This document shows, piece after piece, positions 52,237-62,372 of a stretch of 64,000 bases of DNA; the first letter of the stretch is position 1; each line of letters begins with the position of its first letter. The stretch covers positions 558,001 through 622,000 of the forward strand of contig NZ_SSNL01000005.1 of NCBI RefSeq assembly GCF_007004735.1, written 5' to 3'. This stretch comes from Salinigranum halophilum (GTDB taxonomy: Archaea > Halobacteriota > Halobacteria > Halobacteriales > Haloferacaceae). Position numbers and translations under genes: made by a program. A model generated the notes under the pieces. It was not told where the DNA came from and did not search any database. It was given only the letters and a program-made list of their open reading frames with translations.

Positions 52237-53421
52237 TCAGACGGCCCCGTCGACGATGGCGGCGACGCGCTCGCGGTCGAACAGCTCCTCCTCGACACCG
52301 TACAGCGCGCTCGCGAGCCGCTCGGTGACGACGAGGTTCGTGATGGGACCCTGGTACAGCGGCCCGGCCCGGTAGACGTTCCCGTTCTGGACGGCGGTGA
52401 GTTCGCCCCCGACGCTGTGAGCATCCATGAACGCGACGACCGTCTCCTCGAACTCGGCCCGGGTCTTCGACTCCTGGCCGCGGACGAGCAGCGTCCCCGG
52501 GTCGACCTCGAGCAGCGTCTCGAAGTCGATGGCGCCGCGGCTGCTGTGGAAGTCCTTCACGTCGGTCGACGCGAGCGCGTCGTTCACCTTCAGGTCCCAC
52601 AGGTGTTTGAAGCTCGTCCCCTCGTCGACGACGTACGGGTAGAACTGCTCGGGTTCGTCGCCGCCGGCCCAGACGACTGCCGCCGACGGTCGCTCACCCG
52701 CCGCGGGGACGACCGAGTCGAGGCCGGTCTGGAACTCCTCGTGGAGCGTCGCGAACGCCTCGTACCGGTCCTCGCGCTGGAACACCTGTGCGAGCGTCTC
52801 GAACGCCTCGTACAGCGTGTAGTACGGGTAGTCGTGCCACGCGTAGCCGCGCGAGAAGATGCTGTTCCCGAAGAACGGCGCGATGCGGCGTTCGATTTCG
52901 TCGACGTCCGCCGCCGTCCACTTCCCACGGTTCTGCAGGAAGTTCGGGTCCATCACGTGGACGTCGGCGTCGAGTTCGTAGAACTGCTCCTTGCCGACGC
53001 CGCCGTCGCCCCACAGCTTCCGGATGTCGCTCCCGTCGACGCTCACGCCCGGAACCGCGTCGTAGTAGCGCGTGTGGTACCGACCTGGGAGCCAGACGCC
53101 CGCCGGCGGTTCGAGCCCGAGGGCGATTCCCATGTCGGCCCAACTGCCGTTGTTCGCGACCCACGTCTCGGGGACGGCGTCGAATTCGACGCGCCCCACC
53201 GGGGCCATCTCGACGGCGTACGAGGCGTCCGCCGTCGCCGGTTCGGCCGTCGCTGTCCGGGTCGAGGCCGCCGACGAGGTCGTCGTCCGCTCGGTGGTCG
53301 ACGCATCGGCCGACGACGTCTCGCCGGTGCACCCGGCGAGCAGGCCGCTCGTCAGGAGTCCCGCCCCGGCCGCGAGAAGCGACCGTCGCGTCGGGCGTGT
53401 GTCGTCCGAATCGTTCGTCAT
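52237..53421 (-). CDS. Iron-siderophore-type ABC substrate-binding lipoprotein (FepB/BtuF-like)
   Basis: The 394-residue protein starts with a twin-arginine/lipobox signal, TRRSLLAAGAGLLTSGLLAG then C, followed by a Ser/Thr linker. The mature part reads as a PBP class III fold with VEFDAVPETWVANNGSWADM near its start and a helical C-terminal lobe. It is exported folded and anchored by lipid outside the cell. Two DtxR-type iron boxes lie at 53426-53441 and 53462-53477, right at its start, so it is probably derepressed by low iron. The permease and ATPase genes follow after 151 bp. Confidence 0.9.
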   Translation of the reverse strand: MTNDSDDTRPTRRSLLAAGAGLLTSGLLAGCTGETSSADASTTERTTTSSAASTRTATAEPATADASYAVEMAPVGRVEFDAVPETWVANNGSWADMGIALGLEPPAGVWLPGRYHTRYYDAVPGVSVDGSDIRKLWGDGGVGKEQFYELDADVHVMDPNFLQNRGKWTAADVDEIERRIAPFFGNSIFSRGYAWHDYPYYTLYEAFETLAQVFQREDRYEAFATLHEEFQTGLDSVVPAAGERPSAAVVWAGGDEPEQFYPYVVDEGTSFKHLWDLKVNDALASTDVKDFHSSRGAIDFETLLEVDPGTLLVRGQESKTRAEFEETVVAFMDAHSVGGELTAVQNGNVYRAGPLYQGPITNLVVTERLASALYGVEEELFDRERVAAIVDGAV

Positions 53422-53425
53422 GTGT

Positions 53426-53441
53426 TTTTGGCCCGCCTAAA
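53426..53441. promoter_or_regulatory. DtxR/Idr-type iron box 1 at the siderophore-binding protein promoter
   Basis: TTTTGGCCCGCCTAAA, an imperfect palindrome matching TTTAGGC-NN-GCCTAAA, ends 5 bp from the ATG. A bound repressor would block a nearly leaderless transcript. Confidence 0.7.
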
Positions 53442-53461
53442 CATTCAAACCCCTTTCGGTT

Positions 53462-53477
53462 TTTTGGTGGGCCTAAA
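53462..53477. promoter_or_regulatory. DtxR/Idr-type iron box 2, between divergent metal importers
   Basis: TTTTGGTGGGCCTAAA lies 36 bp from box 1, start to start, in the spacer shared by the siderophore-type and zinc-type importer operons. Confidence 0.65.
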
Positions 53478-53571
53478 CCGTCGGTGTCGTGCCGAGCCTT
53501 CCCGACACGGTCACCGCGTCGCCCCGTCCAGCCCCTGATTAGCAAATAGAAAATTTCATATGGTAAGTTAT

Positions 53572-53591
53572 ATTAATACTAGTGTATTTAT
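53572..53591. promoter_or_regulatory. AT-rich palindrome at the zinc/manganese importer promoter
   Basis: AATAC-TAGT-GTATT is perfect at its core and extends with single mismatches to ATTAATAC/GTATTTAT. It ends 10 bp before the ATG at 53602 and differs from the iron boxes, suggesting a separate (zinc or manganese) regulator. Confidence 0.45.
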
Positions 53592-53601
53592 TAATAACAA
53601 G

Positions 53602-54714
53602 ATGCGACAGAGCAGACGGCAGTTCATCGCCGGGACGGCAGCGGTCACGACGGGCCTCGTCGCCGGCTGTCTCGGCACGACGAACGCCGAGACGCCGGGA
53701 AGCACCGAAACGGAACCAGTTCAGGCGTCGTTCTTCGTCCTCTCGGACTTCGCGTCGCACGTGGCCGGTGACGCGCTGACGGTCGAGAACCTCGTCCCCT
53801 TCGGCCAGCACGGACACGGCTGGGAGCCCGGACCGGACGTCCAGCGGCGGGTGTTCGACGCGACGGCGTTCGTCTACATGGGCCAGGGGTTCCAGCCGTG
53901 GGCCGACAACATCGTGCAGAACGTCCGCGCGGACGACGCCGGCGTCGCGGTCATCGAAGCCCGACGCGGCGTCGACCTCCTCGACGGCGACGGCGACGCA
54001 CACGACCACGACGGGGGCGAGAACGAGGACGGCCACGAGGACGAACACGACGAACACGAGAGCAAGGACGAACACGACGAACACGAGAGCAAGGACGAAC
54101 ACGACGCCGACACCCACACTGAAGACGACCACGACGAACACGAGAGCAAGGACGAACACGACGCCGACACCCACACCGGCGCGGACCCACACTTCTGGCT
54201 GGACCCGGCCCGAGCGACAGTAGCGGTCGAGAACATCGCACAGGGGCTGGCCGAAGTCGACGGCGCGAACGAGGAGACGTACACGCAAAACGCGGCGGCG
54301 TTCGGCGACCGGCTCGCCGCGCTCGACGACACCTACCGCGAGCGGCTGTCGGACCGCACGAGAGACACCGTCCTCGTCGCCGGCCACAACTCGTTCCAGT
54401 ATCTCGGCCGTCGATACGGGTTCCAGGTCGAGGCGTTGACCGGGCTCGCACCGGACGCCGAGCCGACGCCCAGGGACGTCAGACGCGCACAGCAGGTCAT
54501 CGACGACCACGACATCGAGTACATCCTCGCCCCGGTGTTCGAGTCCGACCGGGCGGCACGACAGCTCGTCACCGAGACGAGCGCCGTCGAGGCGCTCCCG
54601 CTGACGCCGGTGCCGAGCCTCACCGAGGAGTGGGCCGAGCAGGGGTGGGGGTACGTCGACGTCATGGAGCGAGTGAACCTCCCGTCGCTGGCGAAGGCGC
54701 TCGGTACGGAATGA
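53602..54714 (+). CDS. Zinc/manganese-type ABC substrate-binding lipoprotein with His-rich loop
   Basis: The 370-residue ZnuA/TroA-family protein has a twin-arginine lipobox signal, RRQFIAGTAAVTTGLVAGC, then metal-site residues in FGQHGHGWEPGPDV, DPHFWLDPARATV, AGHNSFQYLGRRYG and FESDRAARQL. A loop at about residues 133-193 is packed with His, Asp and Glu and has repeats of DEHDEHESK, as in zinc chaperoning loops. It starts at the ATG at 53602; an upstream in-frame ATG at 53560 would add a 14-residue AT-encoded extension before the signal. Its TGA overlaps the ATPase ATG. Confidence 0.92.
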   Translation: MRQSRRQFIAGTAAVTTGLVAGCLGTTNAETPGSTETEPVQASFFVLSDFASHVAGDALTVENLVPFGQHGHGWEPGPDVQRRVFDATAFVYMGQGFQPWADNIVQNVRADDAGVAVIEARRGVDLLDGDGDAHDHDGGENEDGHEDEHDEHESKDEHDEHESKDEHDADTHTEDDHDEHESKDEHDADTHTGADPHFWLDPARATVAVENIAQGLAEVDGANEETYTQNAAAFGDRLAALDDTYRERLSDRTRDTVLVAGHNSFQYLGRRYGFQVEALTGLAPDAEPTPRDVRRAQQVIDDHDIEYILAPVFESDRAARQLVTETSAVEALPLTPVPSLTEEWAEQGWGYVDVMERVNLPSLAKALGTE

Positions 54715-55445
54715 GCGTCCTCGAACTGACCGACGTCACGTACGCGTACGACGACCGCCCAGCCGTCGAAGCCGTCTCGTTGACCGTCGAGGCAGGCGAC
54801 TTCCTCGGGCTCGTCGGCCCGAACGGGTCGGGGAAAACGACGCTCCTCAAGCTCATGCTGGGACTGCTCCGCCCCGACCGTGGGTCCGTCTCGCTGTTCG
54901 GCGAGCCGACACACGAGCAGTCCGACGGGACCCGTGTGGGGTACGTCGCCCAGGCGACGGGAGACGCGGGGGGGATGCCGGTCACCGTTCGCGAGGTGGT
55001 TCGGATGGGTCGCTACCCACACGTGGGGCTCCGTCGGTTCGGGTCGTCGGACCGGAGACGCGTCGACGACGCGCTGGAGCGGGTGGGCGTCACTCACCTC
55101 GCGAGCCGGCGGCTCTCGTCGCTCTCCGGCGGGCAGAAACAGCGCGTGTACATCGCCCGCGCGCTCGCCGCGGACGCCGACCTCCTCGCGCTCGACGAGC
55201 CGACCGTCGGTGTCGACGCCGAGTCGCGCGCGGCGTTCTTCGAACTCCTCCGCGAGTTGAATCGGGACGGACTCACCGTCATCCTCGTCGAACACGACAT
55301 CGGTGTCGTCACGACGTTCGCCTCGACAGTCGCGTGTATCAACCGCAACCTGTTCTTCCACGGTGACACGCTGGCGTTCTCCGAGAGCGACGCGCTGGGC
55401 GAGGCGTACGGCGAGAATCAGGGACTGCTCGACCACCGCCACTGA
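54711..55445 (+). CDS. Metal ABC transporter ATP-binding protein (ZnuC-like)
   Basis: The 244-residue ATPase has Walker A LVGPNGSGKTTLLKLMLGLL, signature SSLSGGQKQRVYIARALAAD, Walker B LLALDEPTVGVD and the H-loop VEHDIG. Its start overlaps the binding-protein stop (ATGA), and the permease follows after 3 bp, so the three genes form one operon. It powers import of zinc or manganese. Length and motifs fit the ZnuC/MntA group. Confidence 0.93.
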   Translation: MSVLELTDVTYAYDDRPAVEAVSLTVEAGDFLGLVGPNGSGKTTLLKLMLGLLRPDRGSVSLFGEPTHEQSDGTRVGYVAQATGDAGGMPVTVREVVRMGRYPHVGLRRFGSSDRRRVDDALERVGVTHLASRRLSSLSGGQKQRVYIARALAADADLLALDEPTVGVDAESRAAFFELLRELNRDGLTVILVEHDIGVVTTFASTVACINRNLFFHGDTLAFSESDALGEAYGENQGLLDHRH

Positions 55446-55448
55446 CTC

Positions 55449-56306
55449 ATGTTCCTCACCCCTCTCGTCGTCGACTTCGTGGCGGAGATGCTCGGATACC
55501 CGTTCATGCAGCGCGCGTTCGTCGCCGGCGTCTGTGTCGCGGTCATCGCCCCGCTCGTCGGGTCGTTCCTCGTCCACCGCCAGCTGGCGATGATCGGCGA
55601 CACGCTCGCTCACACCGCGTTCGCGGGCGTCGCCGTCGGTCTCTTTTTGAGCGCCACGCTCGGGAGTCCGGTCTCCCCGGCGCTCACCGCGCTCGTCGTC
55701 GCCGTCCTAGCCGCGTTGCTCATCCAGGTCCTCTCGGAGTACACGGACGTCTACAACGACGTGTCGATGGCCATCGTCCTCGCGGGCGGATTCGCCCTGG
55801 GGACGGTGCTCATCAGCGCCACGAGCGGCGGAATCGCCGTCAGCATCAGCCAGTACCTCTTCGGGAGCCTGTCGACGCTCACCCGCGGCGACGTCGAACT
55901 GCTGGTCGGGGTCAGCGTCCTCGTCGTCGGGGCCGTCCTCTTCCTGTACCGCAAGCTCGTGTTCGTCACGTTCGACGAGGCGGCAGCACAGATCGGCGGA
56001 ATCGACGTCCGCGGGGTGAAGCGCGTCCTCGTCGTCCTCACGGCGCTCGTCGTCGTCGGCGCGATGCAGATGATGGGTGTCATCCTCGTGGCGGCGATGC
56101 TGGTCGTGCCCGTCGCGGCAGCGACGCAGCTGGCCCGGAGCTTCAAGGAGTCGGTCCTCCTCGCAGTCGTCGCTGCACAGGTCGCCGTGCTCGCGGGGAC
56201 GACGCTGTCGTACGCGTACGGACTCGCCGCCGGCGGGACCATCGTCCTCGTCGCAATCGCGGTGTACGCCGCAGCCGCGAGCGCGAAACTCGTCGGCGCG
56301 CGCTAG
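55449..56306 (+). CDS. Metal ABC transporter permease (ZnuB-like)
   Basis: The 285-residue protein has about eight membrane helices and the ZnuB-family blocks MQRAFVAGVCVAVIAPLVGS, LAMIGDTLAHTAFAGVAVGL and LVGAMQMMGVILVAAMLVVP (with V-V-G variation). It pairs with the ATPase and the His-rich binding protein to import zinc or manganese. The last gene of the operon, it ends 75 bp before the transducer gene. Confidence 0.92.
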   Translation: MFLTPLVVDFVAEMLGYPFMQRAFVAGVCVAVIAPLVGSFLVHRQLAMIGDTLAHTAFAGVAVGLFLSATLGSPVSPALTALVVAVLAALLIQVLSEYTDVYNDVSMAIVLAGGFALGTVLISATSGGIAVSISQYLFGSLSTLTRGDVELLVGVSVLVVGAVLFLYRKLVFVTFDEAAAQIGGIDVRGVKRVLVVLTALVVVGAMQMMGVILVAAMLVVPVAAATQLARSFKESVLLAVVAAQVAVLAGTTLSYAYGLAAGGTIVLVAIAVYAAAASAKLVGAR

Positions 56307-59067: not shown

Positions 59068-61542
59068 TCACTCCTCGACGACGACGGTCCCGACCATGCC
59101 GGCAGCCTCGTGGGGCACGCAGTAGTAGCCGTGCGTGCCGGGCGTCTCGAACGTGTGGACGTACGACTGCCCGGACTGGACGGCTCCCTTCCCGTCCTCC
59201 CAGCCGGCTTCGGCTGCTGCCTGTGACTCGAAGCCGCCGGAGGCCCAGTACGCGGCCCCCTCGGGAAGTTCGTCCTCGTAGGCGACCACGTTGTGTGCCT
59301 CGCCAGCGGCGTGCTCGAAGGCGACTGTGTCCCCGACCGACACCGTGAGTTCCTCCGGCTCGAACGCGACGGCCTGCATCTTCACCACGTGGTCGGCGTC
59401 CGCTGGCACCCCTTCGACGACGTTCGGGCCACCCTGGAGGTCGGCGTCGCCGCCCGACTCGCCACTGCCACCCTCGCCCGCTTCGACGGGCGCTCTGTCG
59501 AGCGCACCGGCGACGGCGAACTGCGCACGGAGGGTCGCCGCGGCGAACGCCGACAGAGTCTCCGCCGACAGCGACTCGATGAACGTTCCTAACCGCGACT
59601 CGAACGTCTCGTACGCGCCCCCATCGGCCTCCTCGAGGAGTTCGTGGACGCGTGCCGCCTCGAAGTCCGCGAAGACGTTCTGGGCGAGCGACCCCGCCAT
59701 CTCGCCGAACGACCCACCGGCCGCACCGACGGTGGCGTACATCGCCGCGACGGCCTCCGCGTTGAACGCCCGGGCGGCGGCAGTGACGTCGCCACCGTCC
59801 GACGCGGCGCTCCGAACCTCGCTCAGCTCCGTCTCGAACGTCTCGTACAGATCCTCGTCGGCCGCCTCGAGCGCCTCGTGGAACCCGCCAGCGCCCGCCT
59901 CGAAGCCGGCGAACGTCTCCTGGACGACAGTCACTGCGCGGTCGGTGCGGCCGAGTGCGGCCACGCCGCTCGCGTCGAACCCGCGTGCGGCCATGAAGCC
60001 CGCTTCCGCGCCGGAGACGTGGGCGACGGTTCCGGCCGCCGTCTCGAACTGTCGCAGGGCGTCCATCGCGCCGGCGAGGTGGGTGTCGGCCGCCTCTGCG
60101 TTGCCGGCTTCGAGCGCCTCGATAGCGCCGACGAGGTGTTCTTCCTCGAACGTCTCGTACAGCGCCGCGGAGGTGTCTTCCAGCGTCTCGTGGAAGTCGG
60201 CCTCGTTCGCCTCGAACGTCCCGAACAGTCCCTGGGCGACGGCCCTCGCGCCGGCCGTGTCGCCGGCCTCGAACAGTTCACGCGCGTCGCCGAGCCGAGA
60301 CCGGAAGTAGCCCGCTTCGAGGACGGCCGGCTCGGGTCCGGAACCCAGGGCGGTCACCCCGGTCACGAGGCTCTCGTGGACGGTCGAGATGGCCGACTCC
60401 ACCCCGTCATCGTCACCCGCGTCGATGGCCTCGACCAGGGCGCTGAGCCCCTCGTCCTCGAAGCCGGTGTACGCCTCCTCGCTGGCCTCCTCCAGCGCCT
60501 CGTGTGCTCGGGCACCCTCGAAGTGCTGGAAGACGGCCTGGACGACCGCCTTCGCGCGCGCCGTCTCGCCGGCGGCGTAGAGCCAGCCGGCGTCGTCGAC
60601 GCGTGCGCGGTAGAGTGTGAGTGCAGCCGCGTGAGCGAAGTCGGTCGAGGGACCGCCGAGTCCCGATAGCGCCGCGGCGTCGAACGCCTCGGCCTGGTAC
60701 GTCGACAGGTGGCCGGTGCCGGCGACGGCCGGCGTGCCGGCGACCGCGTACGAGCCAGTGACGGCGGCGGCGAGGGCGTCGTCCGCGGCCGACTGGGCCG
60801 CCTCGACGTCACCCGAACCGGCAGCGTCGACGACCGTCTCGACCGCTCCCTCGAAGGCACCGTACGACTCCGCGTCGGCTTCCTCGACCGCGTCGTAGGC
60901 CTCACTGGCCTCGAACGCCGACATCGCCCGCTCGGCGACGGTCACAGCCGCGTCGGCGTCGACGGGGGCGACGACTGCCGCGTTCTTCACGCGCGTCCCG
61001 AGGAGCTGGAGGTCGAACGCGGCGGCCGTCCGCGTGTCGGTCCGGCCGCGAATCGCCGACTGGAGGGCCTGGTCCGCGTCGCTGGCAGCGTCGCGGGCCT
61101 CGTCGAGAGAGCCCGCCTCGAGCGCCGACCGGAGCTCCCCGAGGTTCGACTCGAACGACTCGTAGAGCCGTTCGTTCGTCTCCTCCAGTTGCTCGTGGAC
61201 ACCCCACTCGCCCGAGGACTGCTCGAAGCGAGCGAAGACGTGCTGGGCGACGCGCGCGCCGTCGGCGAACGAGCCCGCAGTGCCGAGCGCGACCGCGTCG
61301 AAGAGCCGAGCCCGCATGGCGCTCCACTCGGCGGCGACGGCGGTCTCGACGGTCGCCTCGGCGGCCGCGGCCGACGACGTCGATTCGGCGGTACTCGTGG
61401 ACCCGGCCGAACCGCTCGCGTCGGCAGGGCCGCTTGTCTCCGTCGTCGTCGAGGCCGAGTTTGCCTCGTTGCAGCCGGCGAGTCCACCCACGAGAAGGGC
61501 AGCGCCGGTCGTCCTGAGCAGGTCGCGTCTGGTCTGTCGCAT
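59068..61542 (-). CDS. Exported repeat lipoprotein (DUF5059-like) with C-terminal cupredoxin, iron-box controlled
   Basis: The 824-residue protein has a twin-arginine signal (RRDLLRTTGA) and lipobox LAGC (Cys24), a Ser/Thr/Ala linker to about 65, then about six helical repeats of 80-130 residues. Each repeat has a core like FARFE, then HExLE, then YExFE; the HE motifs start at His116, His347, His451, His555 and His633, with Tyr216 in the second unit. Residues about 705-824 form a cupredoxin with copper ligands His750, Cys808, His811 and Met816. I associate the repeats with haloarchaeal DUF5059. The ATG at 61540-61542 lies 3 bp from an iron box, with a TATA element just beyond. A metal-binding role is inferred, not shown. 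Confidence 0.85.
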   Translation of the reverse strand: MRQTRRDLLRTTGAALLVGGLAGCNEANSASTTTETSGPADASGSAGSTSTAESTSSAAAAEATVETAVAAEWSAMRARLFDAVALGTAGSFADGARVAQHVFARFEQSSGEWGVHEQLEETNERLYESFESNLGELRSALEAGSLDEARDAASDADQALQSAIRGRTDTRTAAAFDLQLLGTRVKNAAVVAPVDADAAVTVAERAMSAFEASEAYDAVEEADAESYGAFEGAVETVVDAAGSGDVEAAQSAADDALAAAVTGSYAVAGTPAVAGTGHLSTYQAEAFDAAALSGLGGPSTDFAHAAALTLYRARVDDAGWLYAAGETARAKAVVQAVFQHFEGARAHEALEEASEEAYTGFEDEGLSALVEAIDAGDDDGVESAISTVHESLVTGVTALGSGPEPAVLEAGYFRSRLGDARELFEAGDTAGARAVAQGLFGTFEANEADFHETLEDTSAALYETFEEEHLVGAIEALEAGNAEAADTHLAGAMDALRQFETAAGTVAHVSGAEAGFMAARGFDASGVAALGRTDRAVTVVQETFAGFEAGAGGFHEALEAADEDLYETFETELSEVRSAASDGGDVTAAARAFNAEAVAAMYATVGAAGGSFGEMAGSLAQNVFADFEAARVHELLEEADGGAYETFESRLGTFIESLSAETLSAFAAATLRAQFAVAGALDRAPVEAGEGGSGESGGDADLQGGPNVVEGVPADADHVVKMQAVAFEPEELTVSVGDTVAFEHAAGEAHNVVAYEDELPEGAAYWASGGFESQAAAEAGWEDGKGAVQSGQSYVHTFETPGTHGYYCVPHEAAGMVGTVVVEE

Positions 61543-61545
61543 ATC

Positions 61546-61561
61546 TTTAGGCTCGCCTAAA
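61546..61561. promoter_or_regulatory. Iron box at the repeat lipoprotein start
   Basis: TTTAGGCTCGCCTAAA is a near-perfect DtxR/Idr palindrome. On the minus strand it directly follows a TATATT element and precedes the ATG by 3 bp, so a bound regulator would occlude the transcription start. Confidence 0.8.
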
Positions 61562-61582
61562 ATATACAAAACCCCTTCGAAG

Positions 61583-61598
61583 TTTAGGCCAGCCTAAA
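61583..61598. promoter_or_regulatory. Second iron box upstream of the repeat lipoprotein
   Basis: TTTAGGCCAGCCTAAA has perfect 7-bp arms; it starts 37 bp from the box at 61546. Confidence 0.8.
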
Positions 61599-61670
61599 CT
61601 CGGTCGGGTCGAGAGGAGTGTCGCGACTCACACCGCCGACAGTGCCGGTCGCGTCCGGTGACGCCCCATT

Positions 61671-61686
61671 TTTAGGTGTGCCTAAA
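61671..61686. promoter_or_regulatory. Third iron box, with its own TATA-like element
   Basis: TTTAGGTGTGCCTAAA is 88 bp beyond the second box. On the minus strand it is preceded by CTATATTT and followed by an ATG (13-codon frame only), copying the layout of the box at 61546. It may be a duplicated promoter. Confidence 0.75.
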
Positions 61687-61775: not shown

Positions 61776-62372
61776 TCAGTCGAGTCCTTCGACGAGGTCG
61801 GCGTACTTCTCGCGGAAGCGCGTCTCACAGGAGGGACAGCAGAACTGGTAGAGGTCCCCGTCGATGCGGGCGGAGACGCCTTCACTGTCGACGGTGTTCC
61901 CACACTGGACACAGGAGAGGCCGAACTCCGTCGCGGAGAGGTCCGGCGACCAGTCCGTCGCCGAGAGGAGCGTCACCTCGTAGGAGGCGACCACCTCGCG
62001 GTCGACGACGTCGAACAGCCACGCGGCGACGTCGCTGTCGGGAACGCGCGCGTGGAACACGAGGTGCGACTCCGCGGTGGTGAAGACGTGCTCGATGGGA
62101 CCGACGTCGAGGAGGTCGTCGCGGACCGCCGCGAGGTCGGCGCTTCGGTCGACAGTCAGGTCGACGAGGACGGGTGTCCCGCCGTGGAACTGCGTCCGGT
62201 CGATGTCGACCGTGAAGCGTCGGATGACGCCGACTTCCTGGAGTCGGGCGATCCGGTCGGAGACCGCGGGCGGGGAGAGGTCGACGGCCTCCGCGATGTC
62301 GCTGTAGGGTCGGCGGGCGTCGGCCAGAAGGAGGCGGACGATTTCGAGGTCGGTCTCGTCGAGGTCGCGCAT
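61776..62372 (-). CDS. Lrp/AsnC-type regulator with C-terminal TRASH metal-binding domain
   Basis: The 198-residue protein has an AsnC HTH (ETDLEIVRLLLADARRPYSD, then LSPPAVSDRIARLQEVGVIR), a RAM-like middle domain, and a TRASH/YHS-like C-terminus with CVQCGNTVDSEG and FCCPSCETRFREKY. This is the layout of the Halobacterium copper-responsive Lrp-TRASH regulator (VNG1179C type). It is likely to sense copper or another soft metal. It is encoded next to the cupredoxin lipoprotein; whether it controls it is unknown. Confidence 0.9.
   Translation of the reverse strand: MRDLDETDLEIVRLLLADARRPYSDIAEAVDLSPPAVSDRIARLQEVGVIRRFTVDIDRTQFHGGTPVLVDLTVDRSADLAAVRDDLLDVGPIEHVFTTAESHLVFHARVPDSDVAAWLFDVVDREVVASYEVTLLSATDWSPDLSATEFGLSCVQCGNTVDSEGVSARIDGDLYQFCCPSCETRFREKYADLVEGLD

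Follow-up and report, generated by a model that had tools for sequence, protein, structure and literature searches.

The DUF5059 protein of Salinigranum halophilum, an 824-residue lipoprotein encoded in the 64,000-nucleotide stretch of DNA that we analysed as a whole (the window), joins six tandem helical bundles to a cupredoxin domain, and we give about an even chance to the reading that it is an iron-repressed, lipid-anchored, multi-site iron-capture protein equipped with a type 1 copper domain. This role is suggested by three properties taken together: iron-box control in every relative examined, a near-invariant set of acidic and histidine residues, and the copper domain itself. The six-bundle make-up, the ligand signature, and the universal iron boxes are not described in the literature that we found, where the haloarchaeal "halocyanin hcpG, hcpE" proteins (HVO_1228, HFX_RS06015), which belong to the DUF5059 family, are catalogued without function. 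The features of the locus are collected in Table 1.

Table 1. Features of the DUF5059 locus and of the neighbouring iron-transport operon (window positions)
Feature	Position	Strand	Basis
DUF5059-cupredoxin lipoprotein gene, 824 aa, stop included	59068..61542	-	Translation; PF16502 E 1.5e-222; PF00127 E 1.2e-18
Putative twin-arginine signal (RR5-6) and lipobox LAGC (Cys24), residues 1-24	61471..61542	-	Translation; alignment
Bundle 1, residues 65-168; E72, D82, FE107, H116-E117-E120, Y127, FE131	61039..61350	-	AlphaFold2 helices; conservation
Bundle 2, residues 170-269; FE211 retained, Tyr216 for His	60736..61035	-	AlphaFold2; alignment; repeat profile
Helix A of last bundle, residues 271-297; H278, D288, G297	60652..60732	-	AlphaFold2 helix 271-293; short forms; repeat profile
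Bundle 3, residues 300-400; H304, R312, D317, FE342, H347, E351, Y358, FE362	60343..60645	-	AlphaFold2; conservation
Bundle 4, residues 403-504; E409, D419, FE444, H451, E455, Y462, FE466, H469, H488	60031..60336	-	AlphaFold2; conservation
Bundle 5, residues 506-608; E513, D523, FE548, H555, E559, Y566, FE570	59719..60027	-	AlphaFold2; conservation
Bundle 6, helices B-E, residues 613-680; FE628, H633, E637, Y644, E648	59503..59706	-	AlphaFold2; conservation; repeat profile
Cupredoxin domain, residues 704-824; type 1 Cu ligands H750, C808, H811, M816	59071..59433	-	PF00127; sequence and fold searches; alignment
Iron box 1, TTTAGGCTCGCCTAAA, 0 mismatches, ends 3 nt before ATG	61546..61561	.	Box scan
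BRE/TATA-like element CTTCGAAGGGGTTTTGTATAT, between boxes 1 and 2; putative promoter	61562..61582	-	Sequence; homologues listed share order
Iron box 2, TTTAGGCCAGCCTAAA, 0 mismatches, 37 bp from box 1	61583..61598	.	Box scan
Iron box 3, TTTAGGTGTGCCTAAA, 1 mismatch	61671..61686	.	Box scan
Paired boxes 36 bp apart, before FecCD-type ABC operon	53426..53477	.	Box scan; same layout on iron-transport operon

Gene product and bundle architecture

Translation of the minus strand gives 824 codons from an ATG at 61542 to a stop codon at 59068-59070, which agrees with the length and the lipoprotein character reported in a preliminary description of this DNA. DUF5059 (PF16502) spans residues 68-685 with 741 bits against a gathering cut-off of 25 and covers model positions 1-619 of 619, making the protein a full-length member of the family, and Copper-bind (PF00127) matches residues 719-823 with 67.8 bits (cut-off 21.2). 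R5, R6, and C24 of the N-terminal signals are conserved at 0.99 among 67 full-length homologues. Judging from the twin-arginine signal and the lipobox, the protein is probably exported in the folded state and anchored to lipid.

AlphaFold2 modelled the full protein (with 48 homologues) at a mean pLDDT of 89.8 and residues 400-610 alone at 97.3. The helical region is confidently modelled as six four-helix bundles without other secondary structure. Each modelled repeat consists of four long helices, A, B, D, and E; a short helix C, placed between B and D, bears the H[ED]xxE motif; helix B ends with FE, and helix D starts with YxxFE. The sixth bundle is interrupted by bundles 3-5: helix A (residues 271-293) lies before them, and helices B-E (residues 613-677) come after. 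A repeat profile likewise matched the protein six times, the last match being without helix A, and the earlier count of about six helical repeats therefore stands. Six matches are also typical of the long form in 393 genomes of the phylum, whereas a short form of about 500 residues, sampled in nine genomes (loci L032-L040), has three. In the short form of Halorutilus salinus (L177), helices A and B of the last bundle are contiguous. Since these two helices adjoin in the short forms, the long form looks, from sequence and model, like a short form whose A-B loop has received three extra bundles.

A putative ligand signature longer than HExLE

Conservation was scored on an alignment of the 67 full-length homologues, whose pairwise identity averages 54% and is never below 41%, and a column was called invariant when it was identical in 66 of 67 sequences or better. 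The preliminary description had drawn attention to a recurrent HExLE motif with His116, 347, 451, 555, and 633, and all five residues are found at these positions in the translation. The His of every one of these repeats is present in 67/67 homologues, and the Glu at +4 in 66-67 of 67, so that the outcome named in the preliminary description as fatal to its reading, a lack of conservation of these residues among homologues, did not occur. The second residue and the Leu are not invariant, and the name HExLE understates the motif: the conserved unit is FE-x(4-8)-H[ED]xxE-x6-YxxFE, in which the His is followed by Y, F, and E at +11, +14, and +15. Seven columns (F, E, H, E, Y, F, and E) are unchanged across 23 repeats taken from differing positions and species. 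Of the 35 signature columns, 34 are invariant, compared with 43 among the 581 remaining helical columns (Fisher p 2.8e-33, 67 homologues). Haloarchaeal proteins are Glu-rich, however, and conserved Glu alone would be weak evidence.

Helix A of each bundle carries a conserved Asp, and the residue ten positions before it is in most cases acidic or His (Glu, Asp, or His: E72, D177, H278, E409, and E513); bundle 3 has an invariant H304 in its stead. At the His position of bundle 2, the S. halophilum protein has Tyr216; because His is present there in 38/67 homologues, its absence is, on the evidence of the alignment, a local loss. A search with the repeat profile gave no match outside DUF5059 proteins in the 393 phylum genomes. 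With this set of residues, the bundles are likely to bind metal.

Iron-box control and expression

Upstream of the gene lie two perfect TTTAGGCNNGCCTAAA palindromes and one copy with a single mismatch, just as had been said of three near-identical iron boxes, the nearest of them almost touching the start codon. Over the whole window, 0.29 boxes with three mismatches or fewer would be expected by chance. In the entire 4.2-Mb genome, there are 12 sites with at most one mismatch (none for the reversed control), and 3 of the 12 are those upstream of the DUF5059 gene.

To measure box conservation, the 250 bp upstream of 78 homologues, drawn from the 391 class genomes, were scanned together with 1,560 background windows. 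A box with at most two mismatches precedes 77 of the 78 homologues and one with at most three precedes them all (background, 0.8%), which substantiates the earlier claim of iron-box control. The start was reliably called in 75 homologues; in the other three it was called too far downstream, and the boxes still lie upstream. A box ends 2-7 nt before the ATG in 75/75 of the reliably called genes, and a second box follows 33-37 bp farther upstream in 63 of them, whereas the third box recurs in few relatives. Among the homologues listed, TCGAA/TTTATA-like BRE and TATA elements sit between the paired boxes. The arrangement, a palindrome conserved at the putative promoter and laid out in pairs, agrees with an operator of the haloarchaeal DtxR-family iron regulon. 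A haloarchaeal iron-box regulator of the DtxR family is described in work cited in PMC11349517 and PMC6978704. The S. halophilum genome has ten loci that match the Fe_dep_repress profile at E <0.001, five of them above the cut-off, and a protein of this family would be the repressor at the DUF5059 boxes.

The same paired layout is found 6 kb from the DUF5059 gene, where boxes at 53426-53441 and 53462-53477 precede 52237-53421 (minus strand) of a FecCD-type operon. Next to this Peripla_BP_2 and FecCD ABC operon, and divergent from it, is a ZnuABC-type operon (53560-56306). At other places in the genome, boxes occur before a gene for an iron-type ABC solute-binding protein followed by a permease, and near a NifU-domain gene, a DUF7260 gene, and DUF7551/7552 genes. 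The loci with boxes near the uncharacterised DUF7551/DUF7552 and DUF7260 genes are L199:3001-4263 and L202:2711-4750, and the DUF7260 gene has as neighbours a DtxR-family gene and a NifU gene whose box has two mismatches.

Published transcriptomes of Haloferax volcanii bear on the regulation indirectly. Its orthologue HVO_1228 (DUF5059 or hcpE) was up by log2 4.2 in an endA knock-down, where it was among the ten most induced genes alongside seven siderophore or iron genes (PMC7714728), and it was down by 2.92 in a cas1/fen1 mutant together with iucA and other siderophore genes (PMC9051519). HVO_1228 therefore co-varies with siderophore genes in two data sets. In the H. volcanii iron-starvation proteome, it does not appear in the table of proteins changed at least 10-fold (PMC11349517). 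The identification of the DUF5059-cupredoxin protein as a probable iron-repressed surface protein is strongly supported by sequence and indirectly by expression.

Copper domain and alternative roles

The C-terminal copper site, previously assigned to His750, Cys808, His811, and Met816, has its ligands at these positions within the PF00127 match, and plastocyanins rank top for the domain in both sequence and fold searches. All long forms contain the cupredoxin, with the His, Cys, His, and Met ligands complete in 67/67, and His, His, and Cys are complete in every aligned homologue. Six of the nine short forms have His or Gln in place of the axial Met, a replacement that should shift the redox potential. 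The domain resembles the plastocyanin and halocyanin blue copper proteins in its type 1 ligands (H, C-x2-H-x4-M) and cupredoxin fold; unlike them, the DUF5059 protein adds a helical array and iron-box control, scores below the halocyanin-domain cut-off, and has the axial Met swapped in some short forms. Searches with the plastocyanin and halocyanin NCBIfam models gave matches below the cut-offs only.

Complete ligands of the plastocyanin/halocyanin type would also suit a halocyanin-like one-electron carrier that backs up iron redox proteins at low iron, the helical part then being a docking or spacing arm. The orthologue is annotated as halocyanin (hcpE or hcpG), and respiratory cytochrome subunits fall in iron-starved H. 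volcanii (PMC11349517). However, a passive arm would have no need for an almost wholly invariant signature with a His-Glu set in every bundle, and the score for the halocyanin domain TIGR03102 (40.2) is well short of its cut-off (93.8); we therefore consider this explanation unlikely. More doubtful still is that the bundles and the cupredoxin collect copper, with induction at low iron because copper enzymes then replace iron enzymes. His/Glu sites can bind Cu(II), the EfeO-like Algp7 was crystallised with Cu2+ (PMC9174327), and the bundles do have a type 1 copper domain attached to them, but the same box precedes iron transport genes, expression tracks siderophore genes, and no linkage to copper-transport genes was found in the neighbourhoods. 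Because of this regulation, it is moderately likely that iron rather than copper is the metal of the bundles, and by analogy with EfeO the copper centre may act as their redox partner.

Comparison with EfeO and imelysin proteins

The preliminary description compared the protein with EfeO-type iron-uptake proteins without claiming homology, a caution that proved well placed. Since the fold search with the full model was swamped by cupredoxins, a two-repeat fragment was modelled instead and searched against 350,542 PDB chains. E. coli EfeO (two chains), Algp7, and P. syringae EfeM occupied ranks 1-4, but their E values of 0.17-0.51, with query TM-scores of 0.30-0.35, are not significant, and no hit in the PDB set reached E 0.001. 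These ranks are a hint of similar architecture, not proof. Profile-profile comparison led us to reject sequence homology to EfeO/M75, as the HHalign probability was 0.7% and the score of 15.8 lay within that of block-shuffled controls (up to 18.6). Peptidase_M75 had no match to the 824-residue protein in Pfam at E up to 5, was not among the families shown for 48 two-repeat members scanned at E up to 0.5, had no match in the S. halophilum genome, and was never above the cut-off in the 391 class genomes. Sequence relatives of the repeat in the PDB were chance helical matches only, and the FTR1/EfeU permease had no match at all in the 391 class genomes, that of S. halophilum included.

The likenesses between the two groups are nonetheless several. 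In imelysin structures, two up-down four-helix bundles bear GxHxxE on a short helix located where the domains meet (PMC3143127), and in EfeM an acidic site is adjacent to this motif (PMC9174327). Like the M75 proteins EfeO, EfeM, and Algp7, the DUF5059 protein is predicted to be exported, is associated with iron, and is modelled with four-helix bundles that have a conserved His-Glu motif on a short helix; like EfeO, it combines helical bundles with a cupredoxin. In contrast, (i) its motif is H-x3-E rather than HxxE, the His and the invariant Glu being four residues apart in all five repeats and not three as in (G)xHxxE; (ii) it has six bundles with a motif each, while two M75 bundles share one interface site; (iii) the cupredoxin is C-terminal, and the domain order is thus reversed relative to EfeO; and (iv) it has no FTR1 partner in the class sample, unlike EfeUOB. 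The EfeO analogy is partly supported: the protein may work like EfeO, but the fold match is not significant, the profiles show no relation, the His-Glu spacing is different, and M75 (above its cut-off) and FTR1 are absent from the 391 class genomes.

Distribution and genomic context

Of the 391 class genomes, 99 have DUF5059, as do 31 of the 86 genera, and the named loci retrieved from the genome collection were all haloarchaeal. The gene has no conserved operon partner, shared neighbours being confined to close relatives; therefore, it looks like a stand-alone member of its regulon. In S. halophilum, the gene just upstream on the same strand (61776-62372, minus) encodes an AsnC-type regulator of the HVO_1752 type, whose C-terminus is a TRASH metal-binding domain, and relatives of the DUF7552-type gene are found beside DUF5059 in about ten other genomes. 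One genome (G207) has two full-length copies (L044 and L045). Decayed or frameshifted copies also occur (L184, L041, and L089, e.g., in Natrinema gelatinilyticum and Haloferax massiliensis), so some lineages may be able to do without the gene. A smaller relative in L184 was rejected because it looks decayed.

We also rejected a tie to the organism's own siderophore synthesis, as co-occurrence is weak (37/98 vs 74/293 genomes, p 0.02, a value uncorrected for phylogeny) and no IucA/IucC was found in the S. halophilum genome. The same observations bear on a receptor for haem or ferric siderophores, in which the bundle His would be a haem ligand or the bundles would bind iron as a complex and not as the ion. 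An iron-regulated surface lipoprotein would fit such a receptor, and one study (PMC3577903) ties an EfeO-containing system to haem iron use; yet with a single His per bundle, Glu-rich surroundings, and so weak a link to siderophores, we see only a slim chance for it. Equally improbable is a structural surface protein (a spacer or adhesin) whose conserved FE, HExxE, and YxxFE residues would do no more than hold the bundles together by packing and salt bridges, which would suit the tandem bundles, the variants with three or six repeats, and the hydrophobic F and Y of the signature, but not the iron box of all 78 homologues or the cupredoxin with intact His, His, and Cys ligands.

Proposed mechanism and implications

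Under the iron-capture reading, the protein would be made when iron is scarce and placed on the cell surface as a Tat-exported, lipid-anchored protein; when iron is plentiful, a DtxR-family repressor would sit on the paired boxes over the promoter. Each of the six tandem bundles would present an E...H-x3-E...E set near one bundle end, and each set could bind one iron ion. The type 1 copper domain might exchange electrons, for example oxidising Fe2+ to Fe3+ or reducing Fe3+ to Fe2+, which would keep iron in the right redox state before it is passed to iron ABC transporters. The analysis establishes the domains, the anchoring signals, the near-invariant signature, the bundle model, and the promoter boxes with their conservation, whereas the metal identity, stoichiometry, redox role, regulator, and hand-over in this scheme are what we infer. 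The scheme would follow EfeO logic, with more copies of the metal-binding bundle and the opposite domain order, in hosts that lack EfeO and the FTR1 permease. More tentatively, and at rather less than an even chance, haloarchaea may have evolved their own EfeO counterpart, a multi-site redox iron collector that has three or six tandem iron sites (one per bundle) coupled to a type 1 copper centre and does without the FTR1 permease.

To our knowledge, archaeal iron uptake beyond siderophore ABC transporters is poorly understood. DUF5059, present in a quarter of the sampled haloarchaeal genomes, becomes a candidate iron-capture protein with named ligand residues, and the genetically tractable H. 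volcanii carries an orthologue, HVO_1228. If the reading is true, a copper domain and helical iron-binding bundles would be paired outside bacteria, in a combination that has either arisen there or been retained beyond sequence recognition.
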